Source of the DNA: a virus
IMG/VR virus record: IMGVR_UViG_3300025849_000059
Span: 1-48,653 of that record
DNA length: 48,653 nt
Direction: 5' to 3' (one strand)
Program-made: the position numbers and the translations under genes
Notes under the pieces: model-generated
Databases searched by the model: none
Seen by the model: only the letters and a program-made list of their open reading frames with translations
What the model was told of the DNA's origin: nothing
Shown: piece after piece, positions 31,388 to 48,653 of the stretch
Numbering within the stretch: the stretch's first letter is position 1
Layout of the letters: each line of letters starts with the position of its first letter

Positions 31388-33973
31388 ATGGGACAATGGC
31401 CTCAGTTTTCGTATCCTTACCCTGAGATACTCAATAAGTTAAATGCACGAGGTGGTAACAACTCACCAATGCCATATGCTAATGCAAGTGCTGGTGTAAG
31501 TGGTTTAATGCCTTGGATTAGAGTAATTTCCGCATATGGTTGTAATAGTGCAAATTCATCTGATAATGGATTGGTAATGCAATCTAACTATCCTCAAGAT
31601 GGATTCGAAATAAGATATGGTAATGGTTCTACTGGTACAAGTGGAAAATCTGGTATATGTGGATTTGAGTTAAATATGGAAAAGCCAGTTGAGGTAAAAG
31701 GTAGACCAACAAGACCAGGACCAATTATTAGTGGATTATCTGTAAGTGAAGTAGATGTAGGTAGAAAAACTACAAACTTTTCAATTACTTGTTATACATT
31801 AGAACATATGGAGAAACTGGCTAAATACTTTTTAGAACCAGGTTTTTATGTTTTAGTAGAATGGGGATGGAACAGTAGAGATGCAAGAAAACAATGGTGT
31901 GGAAATGATGATACTGGTGCAATCACTCCTTGTATGATGACAAAATACATTAATCAAAAATATATTTTACAAAAAAGAATAAAATCAAAATTTGATTATG
32001 ATGCAAGTCTTGGTTTAACTACAAACGGTGGTGTTAAATTTGGAGATAATGAAACTTTTATTTTAGATGTTGAATTAACTTCTCAAGGTGAAGTTGCTGA
32101 GTATATGCAAGGACATAAAGGAGCTTCAACATCTGGTAATAAGAATATATCATCAGAACGATTTAATCCTGCTGAAATTGATGAGTTATCTAAAAAAGAT
32201 GGAGTTGCAAAAGCATTATTCAGACAGATGTTTAATGATTTAAATTCAGAAAAACAAACAACTGAAATTAAAGACTGGGAATCACTTAACATATCACCAA
32301 AAATAAAAGATTATGCCTTTATAGAATGGGGTAAAGAAAACGCTGATAATAGATGGGCAGATGAATCGAATTATATCAATATGGATAAAGAGGTTCAAAA
32401 TTCTATTTTAACCGCTTTAAAAGCAAATGTAAGTATCCAGGCAACCGATGATGAAGATGGAAGTGATTTTGAATTACCAGAAGATAAACCATTATTATCA
32501 GAAGATAGATTTATTAGGTTTGAATTGGCCTGTGCTATAGCGAACGCAGATTTTACAGATAAATCATCAACTGCAGATGGAGCTGCATCTACTCCTTGTA
32601 GTTCAGAAAAAGCATCTCATATTATTAATATTGATACTTGTATTGTAGGAGCATTTCCACATATGTGGTCTTTGGATAGAAACGTATTATATTTACCAAA
32701 TCCAAATACTCCTTCGTTTAATATAGAATCTGCATTTAGTGGTAAAGAAGCAGATACCAAATTTATTAATTTAGAAAATTTAGATGCAGATGTAACAAAC
32801 CTACATCCCACTCCAACTGCAGGTATAAATTGGACTGGAACTCGAAAGAAAAACAATGATGGTTTTGGTGGAGCACCCCATGCTTTTCCTTGTCAATATG
32901 ATTTAACTCCTGATGATAATAAATGGGAATACGACCCTCAAAGCTCTGTTAAGAGTTATGAAATGAAAAAAGGATATTGGGGATGGTTAAAAAATATGTA
33001 TATAAATTTTGATTACTTTAACAAAGTAATGAAAACCCCAAACTATACAATAAGAGATGTTCTATATGATTTACTAAATGGTATGAGTTCCGCTGTTAAT
33101 TCCCATTGGAAATTTCAGATTATAGAAAGACCACATCCAAATACAGGAAAAACAGAATTACAAGTAGTTGATATGAATTTTAGTGGTATAATAAAACATG
33201 ATGAAAGTAAAATACCAACTTATCAATTAAGAGGAACAACTTCACCTTTTATAGAAGTTGATTTTAATGTTACCACTCCAGCAGCAATGCAAAACAGTAT
33301 ATTACAGAAAAGAGCAAGTAATGATAAAAATGCAGAAGTAATTAAAGAACTTGGAGGATTAATACCAGTAGCAGGTTCAGTATGGTCTAATCCAAGTGAT
33401 ACAGATAAAGATGGTATTCAGCCATTTGATATGGTTGCAACAATTGTAAGTGGTATTAAATTCAAAGAACCTACTGCAAAAAAAGAAGGAACTAGTGAAG
33501 GTGAGCAAGAAAAAGATGCAGATGCAATAAAAAAGTCAAACTACGAGTTTTTTGTTGGTAAGGCAGGTGTATTTCCAGCATCTCAAAATAGAAGTGATAT
33601 GGAGGGTGTAACTGATGCCATAGCAACAGGAAATATAAAAGAAGTATTTAAGGTGGGTACATTTAATGACCCACTTCTTTTGAAACAAGTTTATTTAAAA
33701 GATATAGATGCTGAGGGTTGGAGAGATATAAAATCACCTCAAGGTGGTAAAGTAAATGTACCATTTGGAATGGCAGAAGTAAATTTTACAGTTCATGGTA
33801 TAAGTGGATTTAAAAGAGGAGATACATTACGATTTAATGGATTACCAAAAAACTTTTCATATCCACATACATATGAAGTTACTGGATTAGAACATGAAAT
33901 AACAACATCTGGGTGGATGACCAAAGTAAAAACTGGTATGAGACCTTATGGTGCAAATACAGCAACTAAATAA
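31388..33973 (+). CDS. Large baseplate hub-like protein
   Basis: This 861-residue protein follows the LysM gene, where hub (gp27/gpD-type) genes normally sit. Two features fit a hub. ISGLSVSEVDVGRKTTNFSITCYTLEHMEKLAKYFLEPGF...VEWGWN lies near residues 115-170. The C-terminus has VHGISGFKRGDTLRFNGLP...YEVTGLEHEITTSGWMTKVKTGM, like the conserved V.GLxHxI...WxTxV end of hub proteins. The middle is large and Cys-containing (VEWGWNSRDARKQWCG; CSSEKASHI) and is not recognised. It has no lysozyme motif. The stop overlaps the next start (TAATG). Confidence 0.62.
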   Translation: MGQWPQFSYPYPEILNKLNARGGNNSPMPYANASAGVSGLMPWIRVISAYGCNSANSSDNGLVMQSNYPQDGFEIRYGNGSTGTSGKSGICGFELNMEKPVEVKGRPTRPGPIISGLSVSEVDVGRKTTNFSITCYTLEHMEKLAKYFLEPGFYVLVEWGWNSRDARKQWCGNDDTGAITPCMMTKYINQKYILQKRIKSKFDYDASLGLTTNGGVKFGDNETFILDVELTSQGEVAEYMQGHKGASTSGNKNISSERFNPAEIDELSKKDGVAKALFRQMFNDLNSEKQTTEIKDWESLNISPKIKDYAFIEWGKENADNRWADESNYINMDKEVQNSILTALKANVSIQATDDEDGSDFELPEDKPLLSEDRFIRFELACAIANADFTDKSSTADGAASTPCSSEKASHIINIDTCIVGAFPHMWSLDRNVLYLPNPNTPSFNIESAFSGKEADTKFINLENLDADVTNLHPTPTAGINWTGTRKKNNDGFGGAPHAFPCQYDLTPDDNKWEYDPQSSVKSYEMKKGYWGWLKNMYINFDYFNKVMKTPNYTIRDVLYDLLNGMSSAVNSHWKFQIIERPHPNTGKTELQVVDMNFSGIIKHDESKIPTYQLRGTTSPFIEVDFNVTTPAAMQNSILQKRASNDKNAEVIKELGGLIPVAGSVWSNPSDTDKDGIQPFDMVATIVSGIKFKEPTAKKEGTSEGEQEKDADAIKKSNYEFFVGKAGVFPASQNRSDMEGVTDAIATGNIKEVFKVGTFNDPLLLKQVYLKDIDAEGWRDIKSPQGGKVNVPFGMAEVNFTVHGISGFKRGDTLRFNGLPKNFSYPHTYEVTGLEHEITTSGWMTKVKTGMRPYGANTATK

Positions 33974-34368
33974 TGGCAGGTATATTAGATTCATATAATA
34001 ATTTAAAAAAAGGTAAATTACCTAAAACAAAGGTAAACCTTAGAGCATTTGTTCCAAAACCTACTGCAGAAGATTATCGTAGAGGATATATTCGTAGATT
34101 CTTTGCACAACCTTCTAACGATAAATTAGGGGTTGTAACAGAGATTTCTTCTGATGATTATCTTAGAGTATCAACTTCTGCTTTGTATCGTGCTATAACT
34201 ATTAGATGGAGAATAAGTGGTCCATTAAAAATGATATTTAAGGATGATGGTACTATTGCAGATAAAGGAGTTGAAACTTCTAACAGAAAAGCTATAGAAT
34301 TAGTATCAAACGAATTACCTGCACTTAAACTTTATTTAGTACATCTTTTACAATTTTACAAAGAATAA
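33973..34368 (+). CDS. Unknown small tail-region protein
   Basis: This 131-residue protein has its ATG overlapping the hub stop by one base, so it is translationally coupled and probably a baseplate or tail component. It is Lys/Arg-rich: MAGILDSYNNLKKGKLPKTKVNL, then YRRGYIRRFFAQPSNDKLG. A small beta-rich middle contains YRAITIRWRISGP. No family is recognised. It is the last gene before a change of transcription unit. Confidence 0.65.
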   Translation: MAGILDSYNNLKKGKLPKTKVNLRAFVPKPTAEDYRRGYIRRFFAQPSNDKLGVVTEISSDDYLRVSTSALYRAITIRWRISGPLKMIFKDDGTIADKGVETSNRKAIELVSNELPALKLYLVHLLQFYKE

Positions 34369-35487: not shown

Positions 35488-35540
35488 CTATGTAAATGAG
35501 TGATAATAAAACAATAAAATTAAACCTTAAAATAAGTAAA

Positions 35541-36125
35541 ATGAGTAAAAAATTCAAATTTCAATTAAGAGGAACTGAGTTCCAACTTCCAATTTCTCAA
35601 GTACACGAAGATAAGTACAACAACAATGAAAAGTATATCTACATGAATGCTAAGAGTTGTGCTTCTGTAATCAAACAATATGTTAAAAAAACTTACCCAA
35701 CTCTAAAAGTATGGGCTACTTCTGATGTTTATAGTGGTGGTTCTTCTGTAAGAGTAAACGTTTCTAATTCTGATGGTTCAGAAATTACTGACCAAAAGAT
35801 ATGGGAAGATATTTCTTCTTGGAAATATACTTTACAAGGTGGTTCTTTTAATGGTATGATTGATATGTACGAAAGTAGAGAAGATTCTGTTTCTACTCAA
35901 AGTGGTACTCCCTTAAAATACTTCCCTTCTTATGTATTTGTAGAAAACAAACCAAAATGGGATTCAATCGAGTATTGGGTATCTCAATGGAACGAGTACC
36001 AAAGTAGTTTAGATGCTGAATGGACTGAAAAAGTTCAAAGATTAGGTGGTTGGTTAGAATACAACAAACAATTTATGAACAAAAAGAATGTTGATAAAGT
36101 GGCTTCATTAACTGTAAATGCTTAA
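35541..36125 (+). CDS. Unknown protein with LPD29-like fold pattern
   Basis: I prefer the ATG at 35541 (194 residues). The in-frame ATG at 35496 lies within the promoter palindrome, essentially at the transcription start. The leader ending CTTAAAATAAGTAAAATG also resembles those of other early genes. The product has MNAKSCASVIKQYVKKTYPTLKVWATSDVYSGGSSVRVNVS near its start. This Lys-helix, then a strand with YSGGSSVxV, resembles the large polyvalent protein-associated domain type 29; that resemblance is weak evidence. The second half is Trp-rich (SIEYWVSQWNEYQ). Function unknown. Confidence 0.7.
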   Translation: MSKKFKFQLRGTEFQLPISQVHEDKYNNNEKYIYMNAKSCASVIKQYVKKTYPTLKVWATSDVYSGGSSVRVNVSNSDGSEITDQKIWEDISSWKYTLQGGSFNGMIDMYESREDSVSTQSGTPLKYFPSYVFVENKPKWDSIEYWVSQWNEYQSSLDAEWTEKVQRLGGWLEYNKQFMNKKNVDKVASLTVNA

Positions 36126-36602: not shown

Positions 36603-36710
36603 ATGAAAGAACATTTAGTAGAATTAATGTTAGCAAATACTTCCTTTACCGAAGAAGAAATCGGTGAGATGGATAATTGGGAAATCCGAATGCATTTAGG
36701 TTATGAATGA
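36603..36710 (+). CDS. 35-residue unknown protein
   Basis: A short ORF starts 3 bases after the previous stop and overlaps the next start by 8 bases. It encodes MKEHLVELMLANTSFTEEE... and ends WEIRMHLGYE. Tight coupling on both sides and phage-like composition support it; function unknown. Confidence 0.6.
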   Translation: MKEHLVELMLANTSFTEEEIGEMDNWEIRMHLGYE

Positions 36711-36921
36711 ATTGGATTTACATGGTTTCACTCACGATGAAGCTTTATTTGTAGCAGAAGATTTTGTATTACAAGAATCTATAAATCCAATGTTTCAATG
36801 TAAAATCATTGTTGGAAATTCTTCTAAAATGAGTGGATTGGTAAAAGATATGTTAGATAGACATGATTTTAGATATTATATTCCAAGTTGGAATGTTGGT
36901 GAAATAATAATTTCAAATTAA
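36703..36921 (+). CDS. Stand-alone Smr-domain protein
   Basis: This 72-residue protein is little more than an Smr domain, the C-terminal nuclease-like fold of MutS2. Residues 3-8 are ELDLHG, the conserved LDLHG motif. CKIIVGNSSKMSGLVKDML is the second core region, where most Smr proteins have HGKG. The end FRYYIPSWNVGEIIIS fits the final strand. Smr domains bind or nick DNA/RNA and act on branched DNA or stalled ribosomes. The usual GxG is replaced by GNSS, so activity is uncertain. Confidence 0.75.
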   Translation: MNELDLHGFTHDEALFVAEDFVLQESINPMFQCKIIVGNSSKMSGLVKDMLDRHDFRYYIPSWNVGEIIISN

Positions 36922-37126: not shown

Positions 37127-37639
37127 ATGATAGAAACACCTTTTTTCGATAATAGAGAAACTATTTTTCAATCTGTTCAATCAACTACTGTACATGAAAG
37201 TGGAAAGGCATTGGAACGTAGAGTGGCCAAATATTTAGATTCCATGAATATTCCATATAAATGGAACTCAAGTGGTATTGATTTTATAATTAATGGAGAT
37301 ATTCATGTAGAGTGTAAAGCTCAATCCCAAAATGGAACAATATCTGAAAAACTTCCCACCTGTGCACACAAGTACATAAAAAAATATAATCTACAAGGTG
37401 GTGATATTTACATTCTTCACCCATATTCTTCTATTGATAGGGTAGTTGGTGACCATTTTGAAACTTTAGAAAAAGTTTTTGATACTAAGATACATATTAT
37501 TGATTGGAAAGATTTTACCTATTTAATGAATGGGGGTAAGCTTGAACCAAGAAAACCATATTACTATGGTAAAGTTGGGGTTCAACTAACTGCACCATCT
37601 AATTTTTTACAAAACAAATTTTTTAAATGGAATAAATGA
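37127..37639 (+). CDS. PD-(D/E)XK nuclease-like protein
   Basis: This 170-residue protein has the PD-(D/E)XK core. Residues 49-64 read SGIDFIINGDIHVECK, giving Asp52 ... Glu62-x-Lys64, followed by AQSQNGTISEKLP. That ECKxQxxxGTxxEKLP sequence is typical of small phage and restriction-type nucleases of this fold. Glu30 in the helix ALERRVAKYLDS may be a further ligand. Possible roles are host DNA breakdown or recombination repair, or a homing-type function. The stop overlaps the next start (AAATGA). Confidence 0.75.
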   Translation: MIETPFFDNRETIFQSVQSTTVHESGKALERRVAKYLDSMNIPYKWNSSGIDFIINGDIHVECKAQSQNGTISEKLPTCAHKYIKKYNLQGGDIYILHPYSSIDRVVGDHFETLEKVFDTKIHIIDWKDFTYLMNGGKLEPRKPYYYGKVGVQLTAPSNFLQNKFFKWNK

Positions 37640-37773
37640 AGAAAACAGATTTAACACAGTTAGATGGAATGTATTATGTAGGGCACTTAATCGATATCGA
37701 TGGAAGTGGTTATGTAGATGAAGAAACTGCAGAACTAATCCTATTAGAATACAACGCAGGAGTTACTGAATGA
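37636..37773 (+). CDS. 45-residue protein coupled to nuclease and polymerase
   Basis: The ATG overlaps the nuclease stop and the stop overlaps the polymerase ATG (ATGA-type junctions both sides). It encodes MKKTDLTQLDGMYYVGHLID...DEETAELILLEYNAGVTE. The IDIDGSGYVDEETAELILLE stretch looks like a single EF-hand-like helix-loop-helix; this may be chance. No family is recognised. Confidence 0.65.
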   Translation: MKKTDLTQLDGMYYVGHLIDIDGSGYVDEETAELILLEYNAGVTE

Positions 37774-39026
37774 TTATAGTAGAAACTAATAAAGAGAAAG
37801 ACCAATTTCTCGAATATTGGAATAACGAAGAATCTAAGATTATTCCGATTTGGGAAGATTTGGATAGACATCCTATGAATAATGGGTTGTCATTTTTGTA
37901 TGTCCGATTCTCAAATTTAGATTTCATACTTCCTTTTAATCACAACGATTGTGAAAAGTTAGAAATAGATTTATCAACCTCGAATGAAACAAAGTGGATT
38001 TGGAACAAAAAAGGTTTCTTACAAACCGATATTCCTATAACTAATCTAAAAGATGTGCAAACTTCTTTATTCTTTGAGAAATTCCAATTATACGATATAC
38101 AATCCAAATTAGAGGTTCTAACGAACTTTTACTATCGTTTGGGTATAAGAGATGGTTTGGGTAAATCAATCCCTATAATGAAGTGGGGTGAGGTACTACG
38201 AGAGGTTGTTGGTGAGTGGGATATAAAACATACAAACAATTGGGTGGATGAAACGATGATTCCCCTCCTCTCAGATATCGAACGAAGTGGGATAAAGGTC
38301 GATAAGGAAAAATTTATTGATAGATGGCCTAATCACCAAAAGTCATTACTTTTAGAGAATGTATTCACCGAGTACAACCCATACACGATTACATCAAGAC
38401 CTTCCAATAGACATTTAGGTATTAATTATGGTGCATTAAACAAATCCGATGGTAGTAGGGATGTATTCGTTCCAAAGAAAGGAAAACTCTTCTTACAATT
38501 TGATTACGATGCTTATCATGTACGAATTATTGGTAAGTTGATTAAGTATAAGTTACCCGATACTTCGGTTCATCAATGGTTAGCAGACCAATATGGGTGT
38601 TCGTATGATGAGAGTAAAGGAAGAACGTTTAGAATCTTGTATGGGGGAGTATCCGATGAAGATAGAAAAATACCATTCTTTGATAAGGTAGATATGTTCA
38701 TTAGGAAGATGCAAGAAGAAGCAATCAAGAATGGGTATATCCAAACACCTAAAGGTAGAAGAATACCATTAGGATGGATTGAACAACCCAATGGACAGAA
38801 GTTCTTCAATTATATCCTCCAAGCGACTGAAACTGAATTTAATATTGAGGTAATGGAGAAGTTAAGAAAGTTGCAACTTCCTTTACCTATATTATATACC
38901 TATGATTCATTCTTATTTGAATTTGATGATTCTGAGGTTGAAACAATTAAATTGGTTAAGTCCGTTCTCGAAAGTTATGGGTTTCCAGTCAAAGCCGATT
39001 GGGGTAAGGATTATGGAGAGATTTAA
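37770..39026 (+). CDS. Compact family A DNA polymerase-like protein
   Basis: This 418-residue protein carries the family A polymerase palm and fingers. TITSRPSNRHLGINY (206-220) matches the TGRLSSxxPNLQN region. Motif A is DYDAYHVR (245-252). Motif B is K283-x3-F287-x3-Y291-G292. QATETEFNIEVMEKL matches the Q helix. Motif C is YTYDS with Asp379. Both catalytic Asp residues (245, 379) are present, but the motif A Glu is His250 and the motif C HDE is YDS. Residues ~25-60 (IPIWEDLDRHPMNNGLSFLY...LPFNHND) resemble the start of a 3'-5' exonuclease domain without its DxE. Overall it is far shorter than PolA or T7 polymerase. Confidence 0.82.
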   Translation: MIIVETNKEKDQFLEYWNNEESKIIPIWEDLDRHPMNNGLSFLYVRFSNLDFILPFNHNDCEKLEIDLSTSNETKWIWNKKGFLQTDIPITNLKDVQTSLFFEKFQLYDIQSKLEVLTNFYYRLGIRDGLGKSIPIMKWGEVLREVVGEWDIKHTNNWVDETMIPLLSDIERSGIKVDKEKFIDRWPNHQKSLLLENVFTEYNPYTITSRPSNRHLGINYGALNKSDGSRDVFVPKKGKLFLQFDYDAYHVRIIGKLIKYKLPDTSVHQWLADQYGCSYDESKGRTFRILYGGVSDEDRKIPFFDKVDMFIRKMQEEAIKNGYIQTPKGRRIPLGWIEQPNGQKFFNYILQATETEFNIEVMEKLRKLQLPLPILYTYDSFLFEFDDSEVETIKLVKSVLESYGFPVKADWGKDYGEI

Positions 39027-39056: not shown

Positions 39057-39962
39057 ATGATAGGAATTCAAAATAAAGGAATTATTCTAGGGAAAAATCC
39101 TTTTTTCTCATTTAAGGCATTTATGGATAGTGAAAATTTCGTTATCACAGCACCTAAAGTTGGTTCTAGGTTTCTATTACAAGTTTTTGAAAAAAATGAA
39201 GTAAATTTTAAACTTCCCACTCACATACATTCAATAAGTGATTTAAAAGTAACTAGTTCTCAAGTCATTACTACTGGTAATTATAAATTAGATTATGATG
39301 TTGAGTTATATGAACAATCACTAAAAAATGAATGGAATAAAATTATAGATGGTAAATCAACCAAAACTTTAGTTTTTTTATATCGACATCCAATTGAAAG
39401 ATTTAAATCTGCAATAATACAAGATTTTGCAGGTTCTATTACTGAGGGTAGATATGATAATTTTTTTTACATAAAAGAACTTTTAGTAAATAAAGGATTT
39501 AGTGAAGAAAATGCTATGATGTTTATTGCACAGTTTGGACCAATATTAAGTAATAATACTGGTATGACAATAAGTCAAGATAGTGGATATCAACAACTTT
39601 ACATGCAAGTAGAAGATGCATTTAAGTATTTACTTAAAGTTTATACATCTCATGCTGTAAAAAATGGTACACATCATTATAATGATTATCTTTCAGTATT
39701 TGATACATTAGATAGACTTGGAATTGTAAAATATGGAATTTGTATAAATTTAGATACCAAAGGAGAACTAGAAAAATATTTTAAATCTTATTTTGAAAAA
39801 AGAGCTAATGTTCCTCAGATACATAGTAATTTAAAAAATGGAAAAGATTTAATAGAAAACCTACTTAGTGATAATAAATTTATTAGAGAAGGTCTCCACA
39901 AATATTTAAAAGAAGATTTAGTAATCTATTCAATATTGAATAGTAAAATCGATGGATTATAA
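39057..39962 (+). CDS. Sulfotransferase-like protein, copy 1
   Basis: This 301-residue protein has the two PAPS-binding signatures of sulfotransferases. ITAPKVGSRFLLQVF (30-44) stands for the 5'-phosphosulphate loop. FLYRHPIERFKSAI (107-120) stands for the 3'-phosphate site with Arg110 and Ser118. THHYNDYLSVFDTL near 205-220 is shared with the next gene. It is expected to move sulphate from PAPS to a sugar or protein hydroxyl. Its context next to glycosyltransferase-like genes suggests a sugar acceptor (inference). Its last codons overlap an ATG used by the next gene. Confidence 0.68.
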   Translation: MIGIQNKGIILGKNPFFSFKAFMDSENFVITAPKVGSRFLLQVFEKNEVNFKLPTHIHSISDLKVTSSQVITTGNYKLDYDVELYEQSLKNEWNKIIDGKSTKTLVFLYRHPIERFKSAIIQDFAGSITEGRYDNFFYIKELLVNKGFSEENAMMFIAQFGPILSNNTGMTISQDSGYQQLYMQVEDAFKYLLKVYTSHAVKNGTHHYNDYLSVFDTLDRLGIVKYGICINLDTKGELEKYFKSYFEKRANVPQIHSNLKNGKDLIENLLSDNKFIREGLHKYLKEDLVIYSILNSKIDGL

Positions 39963-39964
39963 AC
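39927..39964 (+). repeat. 38-bp exact repeat at the end of sulfotransferase copy 1
   Basis: This sequence is identical to 40792-40829. It covers the codons for YSILNSKIDGL, the stop and the start of the next reading frame. Confidence 0.9.
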
Positions 39965-40827
39965 AAATGAATCAAAAAAATCCTATTAAAATATTTGTAA
40001 ACAAAAAAAACTTTGTAATTACTGCACCAAAAGTTGCATCACGATTTTTACATCATGTTTTTGGTCATAATTCAATTGAGCCATTTTTTCCTAATGAAAT
40101 AAATTCAAAAGAAGATTTAAAATTATCATTCTACCCTCCACTCGATTTTACGATTAAAGATGGTTCTTTTGAAGAACGTTATAATACTGTATTAGTTGAC
40201 TGGGAAAATATTATTCATAAAAAATCAAATAAAAAATTCATAGTATTGTACAGAAATCCAATAGAAAGATTTAAATCAGCAGTAATACAAGATATTCAAT
40301 CTTCTTTTGATAATATGAAAAATTATTTTGAATTTGTGTGGCTAAAAACCATTATTTTAAATGGAGGATTTGATGAAGAAATTACCATGAATTTTATCTT
40401 GAATTTTTTACCACTGCATGAGAATAAAATACAAATAGATGGAGTGGATAACGAGCGGTATTCCATACTTTATAACCAAATTAAACCAGTATATAGCTAT
40501 TTACTGAAACTTTATATTGAAGGTGTTTTTAATCATAATACTCACCACTACACCAATTATTTAAAATTTATTTATGATTTAGCAAAAGATGAACTTATAT
40601 CTTATCCAACTTTTGTTAATATAGAAACAAAAAAAGATATACAAACAATTTTTAATCCTTCAACAACAGATAATGAAATTCCAAAATATTCTAATTCAGA
40701 TACAGGAAAGCTCCTTATTACAGAAATTCTTGAAAATGATTTAGAACTTAAAAATAAATTAAATGATTATCTAAAAGAAGATTTAAAAATTTATTCAATA
40801 TTGAATAGTAAAATCGATGGATTATAA
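39952..40827 (+). CDS. Sulfotransferase-like protein, copy 2
   Basis: This is a paralogue of the preceding gene (291 residues from the ATG at 39952; the ATG at 39967 gives 286 residues and is more likely biologically). Signatures are ITAPKVASRFLHHVF (about 23-37) and VLYRNPIERFKSA with Arg101 and Ser109, plus HHYTNYLKFIYDL. Overall similarity to copy 1 is clear but low, so the duplication is old or both were acquired separately. The DNA at the 3' end is nevertheless identical over 38 bp. Confidence 0.68.
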   Translation: MDYKQMNQKNPIKIFVNKKNFVITAPKVASRFLHHVFGHNSIEPFFPNEINSKEDLKLSFYPPLDFTIKDGSFEERYNTVLVDWENIIHKKSNKKFIVLYRNPIERFKSAVIQDIQSSFDNMKNYFEFVWLKTIILNGGFDEEITMNFILNFLPLHENKIQIDGVDNERYSILYNQIKPVYSYLLKLYIEGVFNHNTHHYTNYLKFIYDLAKDELISYPTFVNIETKKDIQTIFNPSTTDNEIPKYSNSDTGKLLITEILENDLELKNKLNDYLKEDLKIYSILNSKIDGL

Positions 40828-40829
40828 AC
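40792..40829 (+). repeat. 38-bp exact repeat at the end of sulfotransferase copy 2
   Basis: This is the partner of 39927-39964. Both copies end YSILNSKIDGL and overlap a downstream ATGGATTATAAA. Confidence 0.9.
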
Positions 40830-42130
40830 TCTACATACATCATCACTACACTTACGAATTATTTTGGTATTTTTGTCATGGTTTAGATATAAATCCAAAC
40901 GATGTACCTGTTTGGTTTAAACTTAATCAATATAATAAAAATATTAAAATAGACCATGATGTTATAATCGATTCATCTTATAAAGGTAAGACTATACAGA
41001 TAATTTTTTGTTTTGATAATCATTGGGATAAGTTAGATGGATTTCATCTTTTAGATTATTCCATTTCTCTTTTAGAAAATAATACTGTTGGTGATAGGGG
41101 ATTTAATGCAAATGATATGTTAAAAAAAGCTGCAGATTTCAGAACATTTTTAAACGAAAAAGCTAAAATCTTACAAAATAGATTACACTTTATGTATATT
41201 GATTGGGAAGGTCATGATGCATATAATCAAGAAGGTTGGGCAAAGAGAGTTAATAAGAATGTAGAATTTTTTGTTGATGAAACTTATACAATAAATAAAA
41301 AACCAAAAAACTCAAATTTCGTATTTACTAATTTATTTTGGTCTTTTATATATCCAAACACTTTAGGAATACGAGAATATTATTTTTTTCATGATTATTT
41401 GAAATACAAAAATGATTACAAATATAAAATAAATATTCCAGCAAGAAGAGTATATGGTATAAAAAAAGATGTAATACAAGAAGTCTTATCACTAAATAAC
41501 CCAAATATTAATTGTACTCGAAGTTCTTTTCACGAAAGTAAACAGTATCATCTTGCAGGAAAGGGTGAAATGGGTATTCCTTTTAAAGAAGAAAATTATA
41601 TACAAAAAAGAGGATATGGTATTCACGATTGGGGTGGTGAATGGAATGATAACAATATGAATGAAAATATGTGGAAAATGTTTGGTATCTCAGAGGTAGT
41701 AACTTTATTTGAAGTATCTGCAAAATATATGGCAGAACAAGCATTATCCCAAAACAATGACAAAATACCAGATTGGATGCACCCCGGTGATTCAATGTTA
41801 ACTGAAAAAACTATTTCTCATATTTTAGTTGGTAAACCATTTATTCCTCAACACTATGATACAATCGAATTTTTAAATAATATATTAAAACAATATAATT
41901 CTAAGATTGTAGAATATCCACTAGAAAAATATGATACTGTATATGATGTTATACCATTTTTAGATGATATAACTCGTGATGATAAAAAGTGGAAAGTTTT
42001 TACAGATAAACTTAAACTTTATGTTGAAAATTTAAGAACAGAACTTGTAAAATTATGTAGCAACAACAATTCTTATCTTGATTTTTTAATCAAAAAACAA
42101 TTACCAAGTACAAAAGATTTTCTTTTATGA
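40817..42130 (+). CDS. Glycosyltransferase-like protein, copy 1
   Basis: This 437-residue protein starts within the end of the previous gene (11-base overlap) with MDYKLYIHHHYTYELFWYF. Near residues 330-345 it has LTEKTISHILVGKPFIPQHY. That T-E-K...GKPFI pattern is typical of the nucleotide-sugar binding C-domain of exostosin- and fucosyltransferase-like enzymes. RGYGIHDWGGEWNDNN lies about 60 residues before it. No DxD motif is obvious. The assignment is tentative; a sugar-related role fits the neighbouring sulfotransferase-like genes. Confidence 0.5.
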   Translation: MDYKLYIHHHYTYELFWYFCHGLDINPNDVPVWFKLNQYNKNIKIDHDVIIDSSYKGKTIQIIFCFDNHWDKLDGFHLLDYSISLLENNTVGDRGFNANDMLKKAADFRTFLNEKAKILQNRLHFMYIDWEGHDAYNQEGWAKRVNKNVEFFVDETYTINKKPKNSNFVFTNLFWSFIYPNTLGIREYYFFHDYLKYKNDYKYKINIPARRVYGIKKDVIQEVLSLNNPNINCTRSSFHESKQYHLAGKGEMGIPFKEENYIQKRGYGIHDWGGEWNDNNMNENMWKMFGISEVVTLFEVSAKYMAEQALSQNNDKIPDWMHPGDSMLTEKTISHILVGKPFIPQHYDTIEFLNNILKQYNSKIVEYPLEKYDTVYDVIPFLDDITRDDKKWKVFTDKLKLYVENLRTELVKLCSNNNSYLDFLIKKQLPSTKDFLL

Positions 42131-43347
42131 ATTTATATATCCACCACAAATATAACTCAGAAATATTTTGGTATCTATTTCATGGAGTAGATGTTAATTT
42201 AGATGATATACCATATCCTGTCCTTAATATTAGAGAAAAGAATATCTATGTAAATTTTGAATACAAAAACCAAAAATTTAATGCTATATTTTGTGATGAT
42301 AGGTTGTGGGATAAAAAGGATGGTAGACATATAATAGACACCCACTTATATCAGTTACAAAAAGGCTTAATAAATAATAGAGGTTGGAATGATTATTTTA
42401 TTCATAATCATTTGGTAGATTTTAATGTTAACATAAAAAAACATTCTAAAAGATTAGGTAAAAAATTAGATATGTTTTTGATTGATTGGGAAGGTATTGG
42501 TTTTTTAGAAAAGTATAAAATTTTAGATTATCAACAAAATAATTTATTTTTAGATGAATATATATTAAATACAAAATTTACAAACTACCCAACGACACAA
42601 ATACTTTCATCTTTTTTATATACAAATGGTTTGAACTTTAGAGATTTTTATTATTTTAGTGATTTTTTAAAACTTAAAAAAGACCATCATTATAAATTAC
42701 ATTATGCGGTTAGGAGACCAACTGATAAAAAAATAAAAAATATAGAAACATTAAACCAAATAAAATCTGATAATTTTATTATTACCTACTCATCATATAT
42801 AAACACACATGATAATGATGATATAAAATATAGAAAAATAGCTGATTTTTTTGAAAAGAATGTTATATCAAAGTTTAAAGATGATGCAGTTTTCAATAAA
42901 AGAAAATATGGTATCCATAATTTTGGTGAAGAAACTAACAATAATAACACACGAGAAATGTTGTGGAAAGTATTACCATTTTCAGAAGTAGAGATACTTG
43001 ATGAGTATATAGAAGATGGATTTATAACAGAAAAGTTATTTTTAAGAATACTAGCAGAAAAACCTTTTATTCCTACGAACATCGAAGCAGTAAAGTTTTA
43101 TGAAAATATTTGTAAAAAATATAACCAACCAATTGCAGAATATCCTTTAGAATATAAAACTTTAGATGATATAGTTGATAAATTGGATGAATATATCAAT
43201 GATGAAGAAAAATGGGAAGAATTGGTAAACAATATTACAAATTGGGTAAAATCATTAAAAACCTCAATTATAAAGATATTAGATAATAATAATTCATACT
43301 TAGATTTTGTTATAAATGATGTACCAACCAAAAAGCATACTATCTAA
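42127..43347 (+). CDS. Glycosyltransferase-like protein, copy 2
   Basis: This 406-residue paralogue of the previous protein overlaps its stop by 4 bases (ATGA). Shared features are NLYIHHKYNSEIFWYLFHGVD at the N-terminus, FLIDWEG, RKYGIHNFGEETNNNN, ITEKLFLRILAEKPFIPTN and the C-terminal NNNSYLDFVI. The conserved ITEK...EKPFIP block supports a GT-B-like C-domain. It ends the four-gene cassette and is followed by a late-type promoter box. Confidence 0.5.
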   Translation: MNLYIHHKYNSEIFWYLFHGVDVNLDDIPYPVLNIREKNIYVNFEYKNQKFNAIFCDDRLWDKKDGRHIIDTHLYQLQKGLINNRGWNDYFIHNHLVDFNVNIKKHSKRLGKKLDMFLIDWEGIGFLEKYKILDYQQNNLFLDEYILNTKFTNYPTTQILSSFLYTNGLNFRDFYYFSDFLKLKKDHHYKLHYAVRRPTDKKIKNIETLNQIKSDNFIITYSSYINTHDNDDIKYRKIADFFEKNVISKFKDDAVFNKRKYGIHNFGEETNNNNTREMLWKVLPFSEVEILDEYIEDGFITEKLFLRILAEKPFIPTNIEAVKFYENICKKYNQPIAEYPLEYKTLDDIVDKLDEYINDEEKWEELVNNITNWVKSLKTSIIKILDNNNSYLDFVINDVPTKKHTI

Positions 43348-43380: not shown

Positions 43381-44001
43381 ATGAAAAAATTTATATCGTT
43401 ACTTGCACTATTAATAGTAGCATGTACTGCAGAGGGGTTTACTCCTCCAAGTGAAATCCCTAATCAAGAAGATAGAAGGGAATCAGTAATAGTTGAAACT
43501 GATATTTTTAAAGTAAACTACTCAGAAGTTTTAGAACAGCCATTATGGGTTGAGTACACAGTTCAATGTCCACTACCAGGAGTTGATAGAGGTTCTATGG
43601 ATTTTTGGGAACCAGAGGATGTAATTACATCAGATGATGATGATTATTATTCAAACGTATGGGATAAAGGACATATGGCACCAGCAGCAGCATTTAACTG
43701 TACAACAGAAATGTTAAAGAAAACATTTAACTTTCTTAATTCTGCTCTACAACACGAAACACTTAATAGAGGTGTGTGGAATCATTTAGAAGGATTCGAA
43801 AGAAACTTAGCAAATTTTTACCAAGTTGATGTAAGAATAGAAGTACTTTTCGATGATGAACCACAAAAAGTTAGTGGTGGTGCTTCAATCCCAAAAGGAT
43901 TCAAAAAGATATTAACGTTTGATGATAGAGAAGTTGTATTTGAATTTCCAAACGTAGATACAAGTGGAACTCATTGGACCGATTACCTAGTAAGTAAGTA
44001 A
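43381..44001 (+). CDS. DNA/RNA non-specific endonuclease (NUC-type) with lipoprotein signal
   Basis: This 206-residue protein begins MKKFISLLALLIVAC: a basic start, a hydrophobic stretch and the lipobox IVAC, predicting export and lipid attachment at Cys15. The core matches the Serratia-type beta-beta-alpha-metal nuclease. VWDKGHMAPAAAF (93-105) has the DRGH motif as DKGH with His98. The metal-site region follows as LNSALQHETLNRGVWNHLE, with Asn129 and Glu137. The product should degrade DNA/RNA outside the cytoplasm, probably in the periplasm or at the surface. A secreted lipoprotein nuclease is unusual for a phage. Confidence 0.82.
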   Translation: MKKFISLLALLIVACTAEGFTPPSEIPNQEDRRESVIVETDIFKVNYSEVLEQPLWVEYTVQCPLPGVDRGSMDFWEPEDVITSDDDDYYSNVWDKGHMAPAAAFNCTTEMLKKTFNFLNSALQHETLNRGVWNHLEGFERNLANFYQVDVRIEVLFDDEPQKVSGGASIPKGFKKILTFDDREVVFEFPNVDTSGTHWTDYLVSK

Positions 44002-46287: not shown

Positions 46288-46689
46288 ATGCAAACACAGT
46301 TACTCTGTACATTCACTAATAAAGAACACTTTCAAAATACCTTACAACTTATTAGAGAAACATATCATATAGTTTACAATTATATTTATGTTCTTCAAAA
46401 TAAAGGTAATTTGGATGAGTTGTTTATTACATATAATATTGATACTAGTTATAAACCAGATAGACCTTTAGAGGATACTATATTGGTTCATAGAAAGAAA
46501 CAGAGTAATACTCTTTATACCATTAACGCACTAAACGAATTGGTAAAAGAAGAGAATGGTGGTGTATTGGATAAATCATTTACTATCGATTGGGATAGAT
46601 TTAAAAATTCAATCATTGTTACCAATGTAGAAGGCACGAAAAAGATTTCTACAAGAATCTTCGAGGTAATAGAATTTAACAAAAAATAA
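46288..46689 (+). CDS. Unknown protein, T4-like phage type
   Basis: This 133-residue protein begins MQTQLLCTFTNKEHFQNTLQLIRETYHIV, then YNYIYVLQNKGNLDELFITYNID. The middle has DTILVHRKKQSNTLYTINALNEL and the end NSIIVTNVEGTKKISTRIFEVIEF. Similar short proteins with QNK.NLDELF.TYN are known from T4-like phages (recalled), with no assigned function. A strand-helix-strand pattern and conserved size suggest a folded, functional protein. It lies on the boundary between late-type and host-type promoters. Confidence 0.7.
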   Translation: MQTQLLCTFTNKEHFQNTLQLIRETYHIVYNYIYVLQNKGNLDELFITYNIDTSYKPDRPLEDTILVHRKKQSNTLYTINALNELVKEENGGVLDKSFTIDWDRFKNSIIVTNVEGTKKISTRIFEVIEFNKK

Positions 46690-48457: not shown

Positions 48458-48653
48458 ATGGCTTTAGACATTAACGCAATCAGAGGTAGACTGAACAAAC
48501 TACAAAACACACAACGTAAATCAGATGCACTTTGGAAACCAACTCCAGGTAAACATCAAGTAAGAATCGTTCCTTACAAATTCAATCAGGATAACCCTTT
48601 CATTGAATTGTATTTTCACTACAACATTAACAACAAAACTTATTTATCACCAC
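48458..48653 (+). CDS. 32: Single-stranded DNA-binding protein gp32 (3' end outside window)
   Basis: The ATG at 48458 follows AAAGGT. The visible ~65 residues begin MALDINAIRGRLNKLQN, a basic B-domain-like N-terminus needed for cooperative binding. LWKPTPGKHQVRIVPYKFNQ, DNPFIELYFHYNINNKTYLSP follow, the signature start of the T4-type gp32 core. It coats single-stranded DNA in replication, recombination and repair. The frame runs off the right edge. Confidence 0.93.
   Translation, partial: MALDINAIRGRLNKLQNTQRKSDALWKPTPGKHQVRIVPYKFNQDNPFIELYFHYNINNKTYLSP

Follow-up and report, generated by a model that had tools for sequence, protein, structure and literature searches.

A probable divPolA1-type family A DNA polymerase in a phage genome fragment and its likely accessory role

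Why would a phage which possesses a complete proofreading replicase keep a second polymerase that appears unable to proofread? This puzzle is raised by a gene in the viral DNA analysed here, a stretch of 48,653 nucleotides which we call the window. At positions 37770..39026 on the + strand, the window holds a complete open reading frame of 418 amino acids with an ATG start. An original prediction, made from the letters of the DNA, had proposed that it encodes a very small family A DNA polymerase with altered motifs, which could be either the replicative enzyme of the phage or an extra one. Answering the question requires knowing whether the protein is a whole enzyme, which residues of its active site are kept in its family, which other polymerases its relatives encode and in which company its gene is found.

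Predicted fold and family of the 418-residue protein

In a single-sequence search, the protein matched the Pfam family DNA_pol_A (PF00476) with an E value of 3.5e-6 and 26.6 bits, which does not reach the gathering score of 34.3, and it passed the cut-off of no NCBIfam model. The aminoadenine polymerase DpoZ was rejected as a candidate, the NCBIfam DpoZ model giving 20 bits for a cut-off of 500. PHROG_17, annotated as 'DNA polymerase', was matched with an E value of 4e-15, a profile built from 63 diverse relatives found Klenow at E 7e-7, and the alignment by hhalign of the family profile with a small PolA profile had a probability of 97.7%. Weak by single-sequence search, the assignment to family A is clear by profile comparison and by predicted fold. 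The AlphaFold2 model (pLDDT 92.6, pTM 0.90) presents a Klenow-type fold, and the best match to it among solved structures is the large fragment of Bst Pol I (Z 27.1, 3.7 Å), with 393 of the 418 residues aligned. This alignment covers residues 1-418 of the model and residues 301-875 of Bst Pol I, i.e., the window protein needs 418 residues where the bacterial enzyme uses about 575. Bst, Taq and M. smegmatis Pol I gave the highest Z among the structural matches listed; all 50 of these are Pol I-type DNA polymerases, a result which concerns the list and says nothing against RNA polymerases beyond it. The top Foldseek match was Pol theta (8efc, E 2.0e-18), with Klenow and Bst close (E 4e-18 to 1e-17), and Pol nu was also among the matches.

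Since the model spans the entire Klenow fold, the protein as modelled is a whole, shrunken Klenow-type enzyme rather than a fragment. A piece of a split gene, the outcome that would have undone the original prediction, was ruled out by this span and by the similar lengths found across the family, for which about 400-450 residues are standard and most members have 403-442. Compared with 13 close relatives, the gene shows a dN/dS of 0.136-0.187 and is therefore under purifying selection; these values and the invariant residues of the active site (see below) led us to reject a decayed gene.

Family A enzymes of this type were named divPolA1 in PMC11348598 (Virol J 2024), the main text of which reports them in 14 phages of 155-190 kb, including Flavobacterium phage vB_FspM_immuto, with the palm residues kept, the thumb truncated and the exonuclease aspartates replaced, and encoded beside a regular PolA, PolB or PolC. 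The name is used in this article and in its preprint, and among the listed results of our literature searches, no other description of the family appeared. The immuto member and the window protein are 26.9% identical over 91% of the query (tblastn, E 5e-27), and the window protein is 24-28% identical to the rows of the immuto clade. The phylogeny suggested by the original prediction placed the window, immuto and Mel-JY01 proteins in a single clade, which has 66 rows and a support of 100/100 and is separate from the five canonical PolA rows; the tree program flags long branches, and the order of the deep forks is thus unsure. The product of 37770-39026 is very probably a member of divPolA1, with which it shares, beyond direct homology and as far as that main text describes the family, the kept palm residues, the short thumb, the apparently dead exonuclease, the second polymerase in the genomes of the relatives and the replication genes downstream. 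A second small family A enzyme described there, divPolA2 of barbaviruses, resembles it by description in the apparent lack of an exonuclease and in being encoded beside a regular PolB, but is set apart, again by description, by an unrelated N-terminal domain and a variable neighbourhood.

Near-full-length relatives were found in 6 of 50,697 phage records, namely LR756508 (484 kb), Microcystis phage Mel-JY01 (190 kb) and four records of Flavobacterium phage immuto (160 kb). Scans of IMG/VR with three different queries returned 138, 109 and 312 relatives, partly overlapping, and the best 80 of each set were used. The window protein belongs to a clade of phages whose largest contigs are of 207-289 kb, compared with the 155-190 kb of the phages in the main text of PMC11348598. 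Our analysis thus extends divPolA1 to these contigs and to a 484-kb phage, and adds the motif changes shared by the whole family and a companion gene. In bacterial and archaeal genomes, our scan found two divPolA1 loci; one of them, on a contig of 13 kb that was assigned by binning to an uncultured Flammeovirgaceae MAG, encodes a protein 73% identical to that of the window (residues 219-418). As immuto also infects Flavobacterium, this contig hints at hosts among the Bacteroidota, the binning of a phage contig being weak evidence. As for other reports, PMC12619734 names for a lineage of jumbo phages, in addition to PolB, a 'DNA polymerase I' (VOG01986), which may or may not be a protein of the divPolA1 type.

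Active site, exonuclease-like domain and thumb

The residues R210, D245, D247, H250, Y279, K283, F287, Y291, G292, N347, Q351, Y376, Y378 and D379 are invariant in all 63 representatives of the family. The 63-row alignment leaves out three copies from named phage records, and its 66-row version has the same core. All of the following positions are on the + strand. The codon of R210 is at 38397..38399. Motif A (DYDAYHVR, residues 245-252, 38502..38525) contains the catalytic D245, the additional invariant D247 and, at the position of the steric-gate Glu, H250. Motif B, or the O helix (residues 279-292, 38604..38645), contains Y279, K283, F287, Y291 and G292; it is followed by residues 347-351 with N347 and Q351 (38808..38822) and by motif C (YDS, residues 378-380, 38901..38909) with the catalytic D379. 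By profile alignment, and in the numbering of E. coli Pol I, R210 corresponds to R668, D245 to D705, D247 to S707, H250 to E710, Y279 to R754, K283 to K758, F287 to F762, Y291 to Y766 and G292 to G767. In the same way, N347 corresponds to N845, Q351 to Q849, Y376 to Q879, Y378 to H881, D379 to D882 and S380 to E883.

Compared with the Klenow part of bacterial Pol I (Bst, Taq, E. coli), the window protein keeps the fold over 393 of its 418 residues and most of the active-site residues, including the pair of catalytic Asp, the Lys, Phe and Tyr of the O helix and the Asn/Gln pair, but differs at the positions of Glu710, Arg754, His881 and Glu883 and has lost the exonuclease residues. Three of these replacements are family-wide: the steric-gate Glu by His (63/63 family rows, against Glu in 5/5 canonical PolA rows), Arg754 by Tyr and His881 by Tyr. 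Tyr378-Asp379 is followed by Ala in 34 of the 63 representatives and by Ser in the other 29. Both catalytic Asp, the His in motif A and the YDS of motif C had been pointed out in the original prediction, and each of these observations extends to the family, the third residue of YDS being the variable one. Because the His of motif A and the Tyr-Asp of motif C are invariant in 63/63 rows, they are traits of the family and not signs of decay.

It is hardly credible, then, that the protein is a remnant, either without catalytic activity or in the course of degenerating, which the phage keeps as a scaffold. Such a remnant would account for an exonuclease-like domain without a conserved D-x-E pair and for the several canonical side chains of the polymerase site which differ, but not for the invariance of both catalytic Asp and of further active-site residues, the dN/dS of 0.136-0.187 or the many relatives found in IMG/VR.

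With its changed steric gate and with Tyr where Pol I has Arg754, the enzyme could have unusual substrates, a point against the role favoured below. The word 'steric' does not appear in the main text of PMC11348598. An enzyme using ribonucleotides, either primase-like or RNA-synthesising, would be one way to explain why H250 and D247 are invariant in all 63 rows, when Glu occupies the gate in each of the five canonical PolA rows, and T7 RNA polymerase demonstrates that this fold can make RNA. We hold this for a slim chance. F287, at the position of Pol I F762, is kept as in DNA polymerases, and since His takes up no less room than Glu, a 2'-OH may still be kept out by the gate. A separate primase of the T4 gp61 type is present in 12 of 13 relatives (PHROG_47, with T4 as control), which weakens the idea of a primase substitute; the only one of the 13 in which it was not found is a 113-kb fragment (G005).

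Residues 1-155 (37770..38234, + strand) occupy in the Klenow-like model the place of the 3'-5' exonuclease domain, and we delimited this degenerate exonuclease-like domain by the span of the fold and by column counts. Within residues 1-160, column counts over the 63 representatives gave no conserved D-x-E pair, and three acidic columns only (60, 95 and 141) are kept in at least 80% of the rows. The missing pair and the fold span together support the shrunken and probably inactive N-terminal exonuclease of the original prediction. The thumb is reduced as well: residue 159 and R210 are 51 residues apart, as opposed to 139 for the corresponding anchors in Klenow (chain positions 206 and 345), and the thumb region is therefore shorter by about 90 residues. 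Polymerase activity with low processivity, without proofreading and with particular substrates is what we would expect from these sequence and model features.

A second polymerase in the relatives

The original prediction advised a search for a gp43 gene elsewhere in the genome. No family B polymerase was matched in the window record, which may be expected because this 48.7-kb piece ends inside the module described below. A gene of this type does exist in G001, a large and close relative of 276 kb whose divPolA1 gene is 88% identical at the DNA level; there, a T4-gp43-like polymerase with intact exonuclease and polymerase motifs is encoded about 25 kb downstream of divPolA1. Among 24 large relatives, 23 carry a second, full-size polymerase, of family B in 15 and full-length family A in 8; in a first set of 13 records the numbers are 8 and 5 (the latter of about 780 residues) and in the 11 further ones 7 and 3. 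These 24 records were picked for their length, are not independent of each other and come without completeness estimates; the sole exception, in which no second polymerase was found, is a 114-kb fragment (G016). As the divPolA1 family shows, the two-polymerase arrangement is widespread and diverged in environmental viruses.

In the family B enzymes of the relatives, the exonuclease carboxylates are intact in 8/8 rows and the DTDS motif is present in 7/8, in alignment columns that we located by the T4 gp43 positions. The row without DTDS at the expected place is that of LR756508, in which the gene is interrupted: at about 260.6-266.9 kb of LR756508.1, the matches to the family B polymerase are divided between one open frame of 1022 residues and another of 625, several kb apart, which suggests an intein, an intron or a homing insertion.

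Because 23 of the 24 large relatives also encode a full-size polymerase, divPolA1 is most likely an accessory enzyme; between the two roles that the original prediction left side by side, the extra polymerase is thus likely and the replicative one is not. If divPolA1 were the main replicative polymerase, the other full-size enzyme, whether of family B or a full-length one of family A, would need to have another job. This would agree with the helicase, SSB and recombinase found in the neighbourhood of divPolA1 and kept across phages whose other polymerase differs. It would also agree with the main text of PMC11348598, which notes that the context of the 'regular' polymerase is more variable. 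We consider it improbable, since a missing proofreading function and a truncated thumb are unlikely for the replicase of genomes of 160-480 kb, and the exonuclease motifs of the family B enzymes are intact (see above). In addition, PolB adjoins HolB-like and clamp-loader genes in Mel-JY01, in which divPolA1 sits with SSB, RecA, 5'-3' exonuclease and DnaB, and in G001 a gp44 homologue is within about 8 kb of PolB.

The conserved module and the proposed role

The gene order divPolA1, 133-aa protein, gp32-type SSB, RecA, 5'-3' exonuclease and DnaB is common to G001, immuto and, as far as its sequence reaches, the window. In the latter, the gene of the 133-aa conserved companion protein, which we call h133, is at 46288..46689 (+ strand), and the start of the gp32-type SSB gene, cut by the window end, at 48458..48653 (+ strand), Pfam gp32 being matched on the G001 homologue. 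In G001, the SSB is followed by RecA, the 5'-3' exonuclease and DnaB. Immuto presents after divPolA1 a 151-aa gene, one gene, SSB, RecA, exonuclease and DnaB, and Mel-JY01 a 129-aa gene, two genes, SSB, RecA, 5'-3' exonuclease and DnaB; SSB, RecA, FEN and DnaB are also downstream of divPolA1 in LR756508. Pfam confirms the gp32-type SSB, RecA, 5'-3' exonuclease and DnaB on homologues. The 5'-3' exonuclease match of G001 (about 178.6-179.6 kb) shifts frame near 178,780, from a frameshift or an assembly error.

The explanation that we favour as a whole, with a probability of roughly 0.6, is that divPolA1 performs accessory, short-patch, non-proofreading synthesis beside a proofreading replicase. 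The protein is in this view a family A polymerase of much reduced size, which has retained its catalytic residues and combines a short thumb and shortened fingers with a presumably dead proofreading domain. The phage would carry it alongside a replicative polymerase of full size that can proofread, which in relatives is T4 gp43-like. It would act as a distributive accessory enzyme of the recombination and lagging-strand module and, where the gp32-type SSB of the phage covers the DNA, make short extensions of 3' ends. Its substrates would be the gaps where the phage 5'-3' exonuclease has removed RNA primers, and the D-loops made by RecA which start recombination-dependent replication. For this role in gaps and D-loops in particular, we estimate the chances as even. 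The context does not tell whether divPolA1 fills gaps or has a broader part in replication, because SSB, RecA, FEN and DnaB are also the core of ordinary replication, and it was from context of this kind that PMC11348598 argued for divPolA1 being 'involved in replication'. T4 fills its primer gaps with gp43 alone, so the linkage to FEN by itself demands no second polymerase.

The strongest rival is lesion bypass. The protein would then be an exonuclease-dead family A polymerase, like the eukaryotic Pol theta or Pol nu, which copies past damage or joins ends with the help of the phage RecA and SSB. Pol theta and Pol nu are family A enzymes whose exonuclease domain is inactive, as it seems to be in the window protein, but they are much larger and carry insertions, and we found nothing for a common descent beyond family A. 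The compact polymerase domain with its dead exonuclease, Pol theta as the top Foldseek match, and RecA and the gp32-type SSB in the module all suit this translesion role. The highest Z listed, on the other hand, belong to Pol I of Bst, Taq and M. smegmatis, and a location that stays linked to the genes of DnaB and the 5'-3' exonuclease across phages would point to routine replication rather than stress; we therefore regard lesion bypass as unlikely, though the most serious competitor of accessory synthesis in gaps and recombination.

The companion protein h133 follows divPolA1 closely. Among its loci, examined in the best 80 of at least 592 relatives (at least 4 of them from contigs already among the divPolA1 relatives), divPolA1 is upstream on the same strand in 41/41 of those whose contig extends 5 kb or more upstream. 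Conversely, a gene of the h133 type is near divPolA1 in 29/48, 22/22, 72/79 and 64/66 loci of four clades, counts which include loci with short flanks, where an absence is not a real absence. The 6 of 50,697 phage records matched by h133 are the same 6 which have a near-full-length divPolA1; the module SSB matches 22 records, these 6 among them, so the co-occurrence is partly due to lineage. For h133 itself, Pfam, PHROG and NCBIfam gave no match of weight, PDB profiles chance-level matches only (E 0.26) and Foldseek no match at E ≤0.001, and the best VIA match (63 residues, Z 6.1) has a score of the size which this tool describes as common.

It is conceivable, as a long shot, that divPolA1 and h133 form a two-gene enzyme in which h133 replaces the missing thumb, in the way that thioredoxin is used by T7 polymerase, and which, with a re-tooled nucleotide site (Asp247, His250, Tyr279 for Arg754 and Tyr378 for His881), performs a dedicated non-proofreading step when large phages replicate from recombination primers. 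If the His gate changed sugar selection, or if the 133-aa protein supplied a processivity element, this would be a new kind of small polymerase. The kept order of divPolA1, 133-aa gene, SSB, RecA, exonuclease and helicase, beside main polymerases of differing families, constitutes a small set of proteins that could be reconstituted.

Downstream of divPolA1 in the window, a DNA/RNA non-specific endonuclease (PF01223) is encoded at 43381..44001 (+ strand); in 42/48 loci of the window clade the endonuclease is downstream of divPolA1 at a median distance of 87 bp, and here cargo genes lie between the two. These are four open reading frames of 301, 291, 437 and 406 residues at 39057-43347, which look like a cargo insertion. 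The 301- and 291-aa products, for which no family was matched, resemble each other and contain stretches reminiscent of sulfotransferases. Upstream, an 861-aa protein (31388..33973, + strand) matches by its C-terminus the gene which in Mel-JY01 is two places upstream of divPolA1, and the homologue of the 131-aa conserved gene which follows it (33973..34368, + strand) is directly upstream in that phage. A 209-aa protein with an LPD29 domain (PF18847, above cut-off) is encoded at 35496-36125, upstream of divPolA1 as in 24/48 clade loci, and a 72-aa stand-alone Smr-like domain (PF01713, E 4e-5, just under cut-off) at 36703-36921. Directly upstream of divPolA1, at 37127-37639, is the gene of a 170-aa protein resembling PD-(D/E)XK nucleases (PF20472, E 7.9e-5, just under cut-off), which was matched in only 1/48 clade loci.
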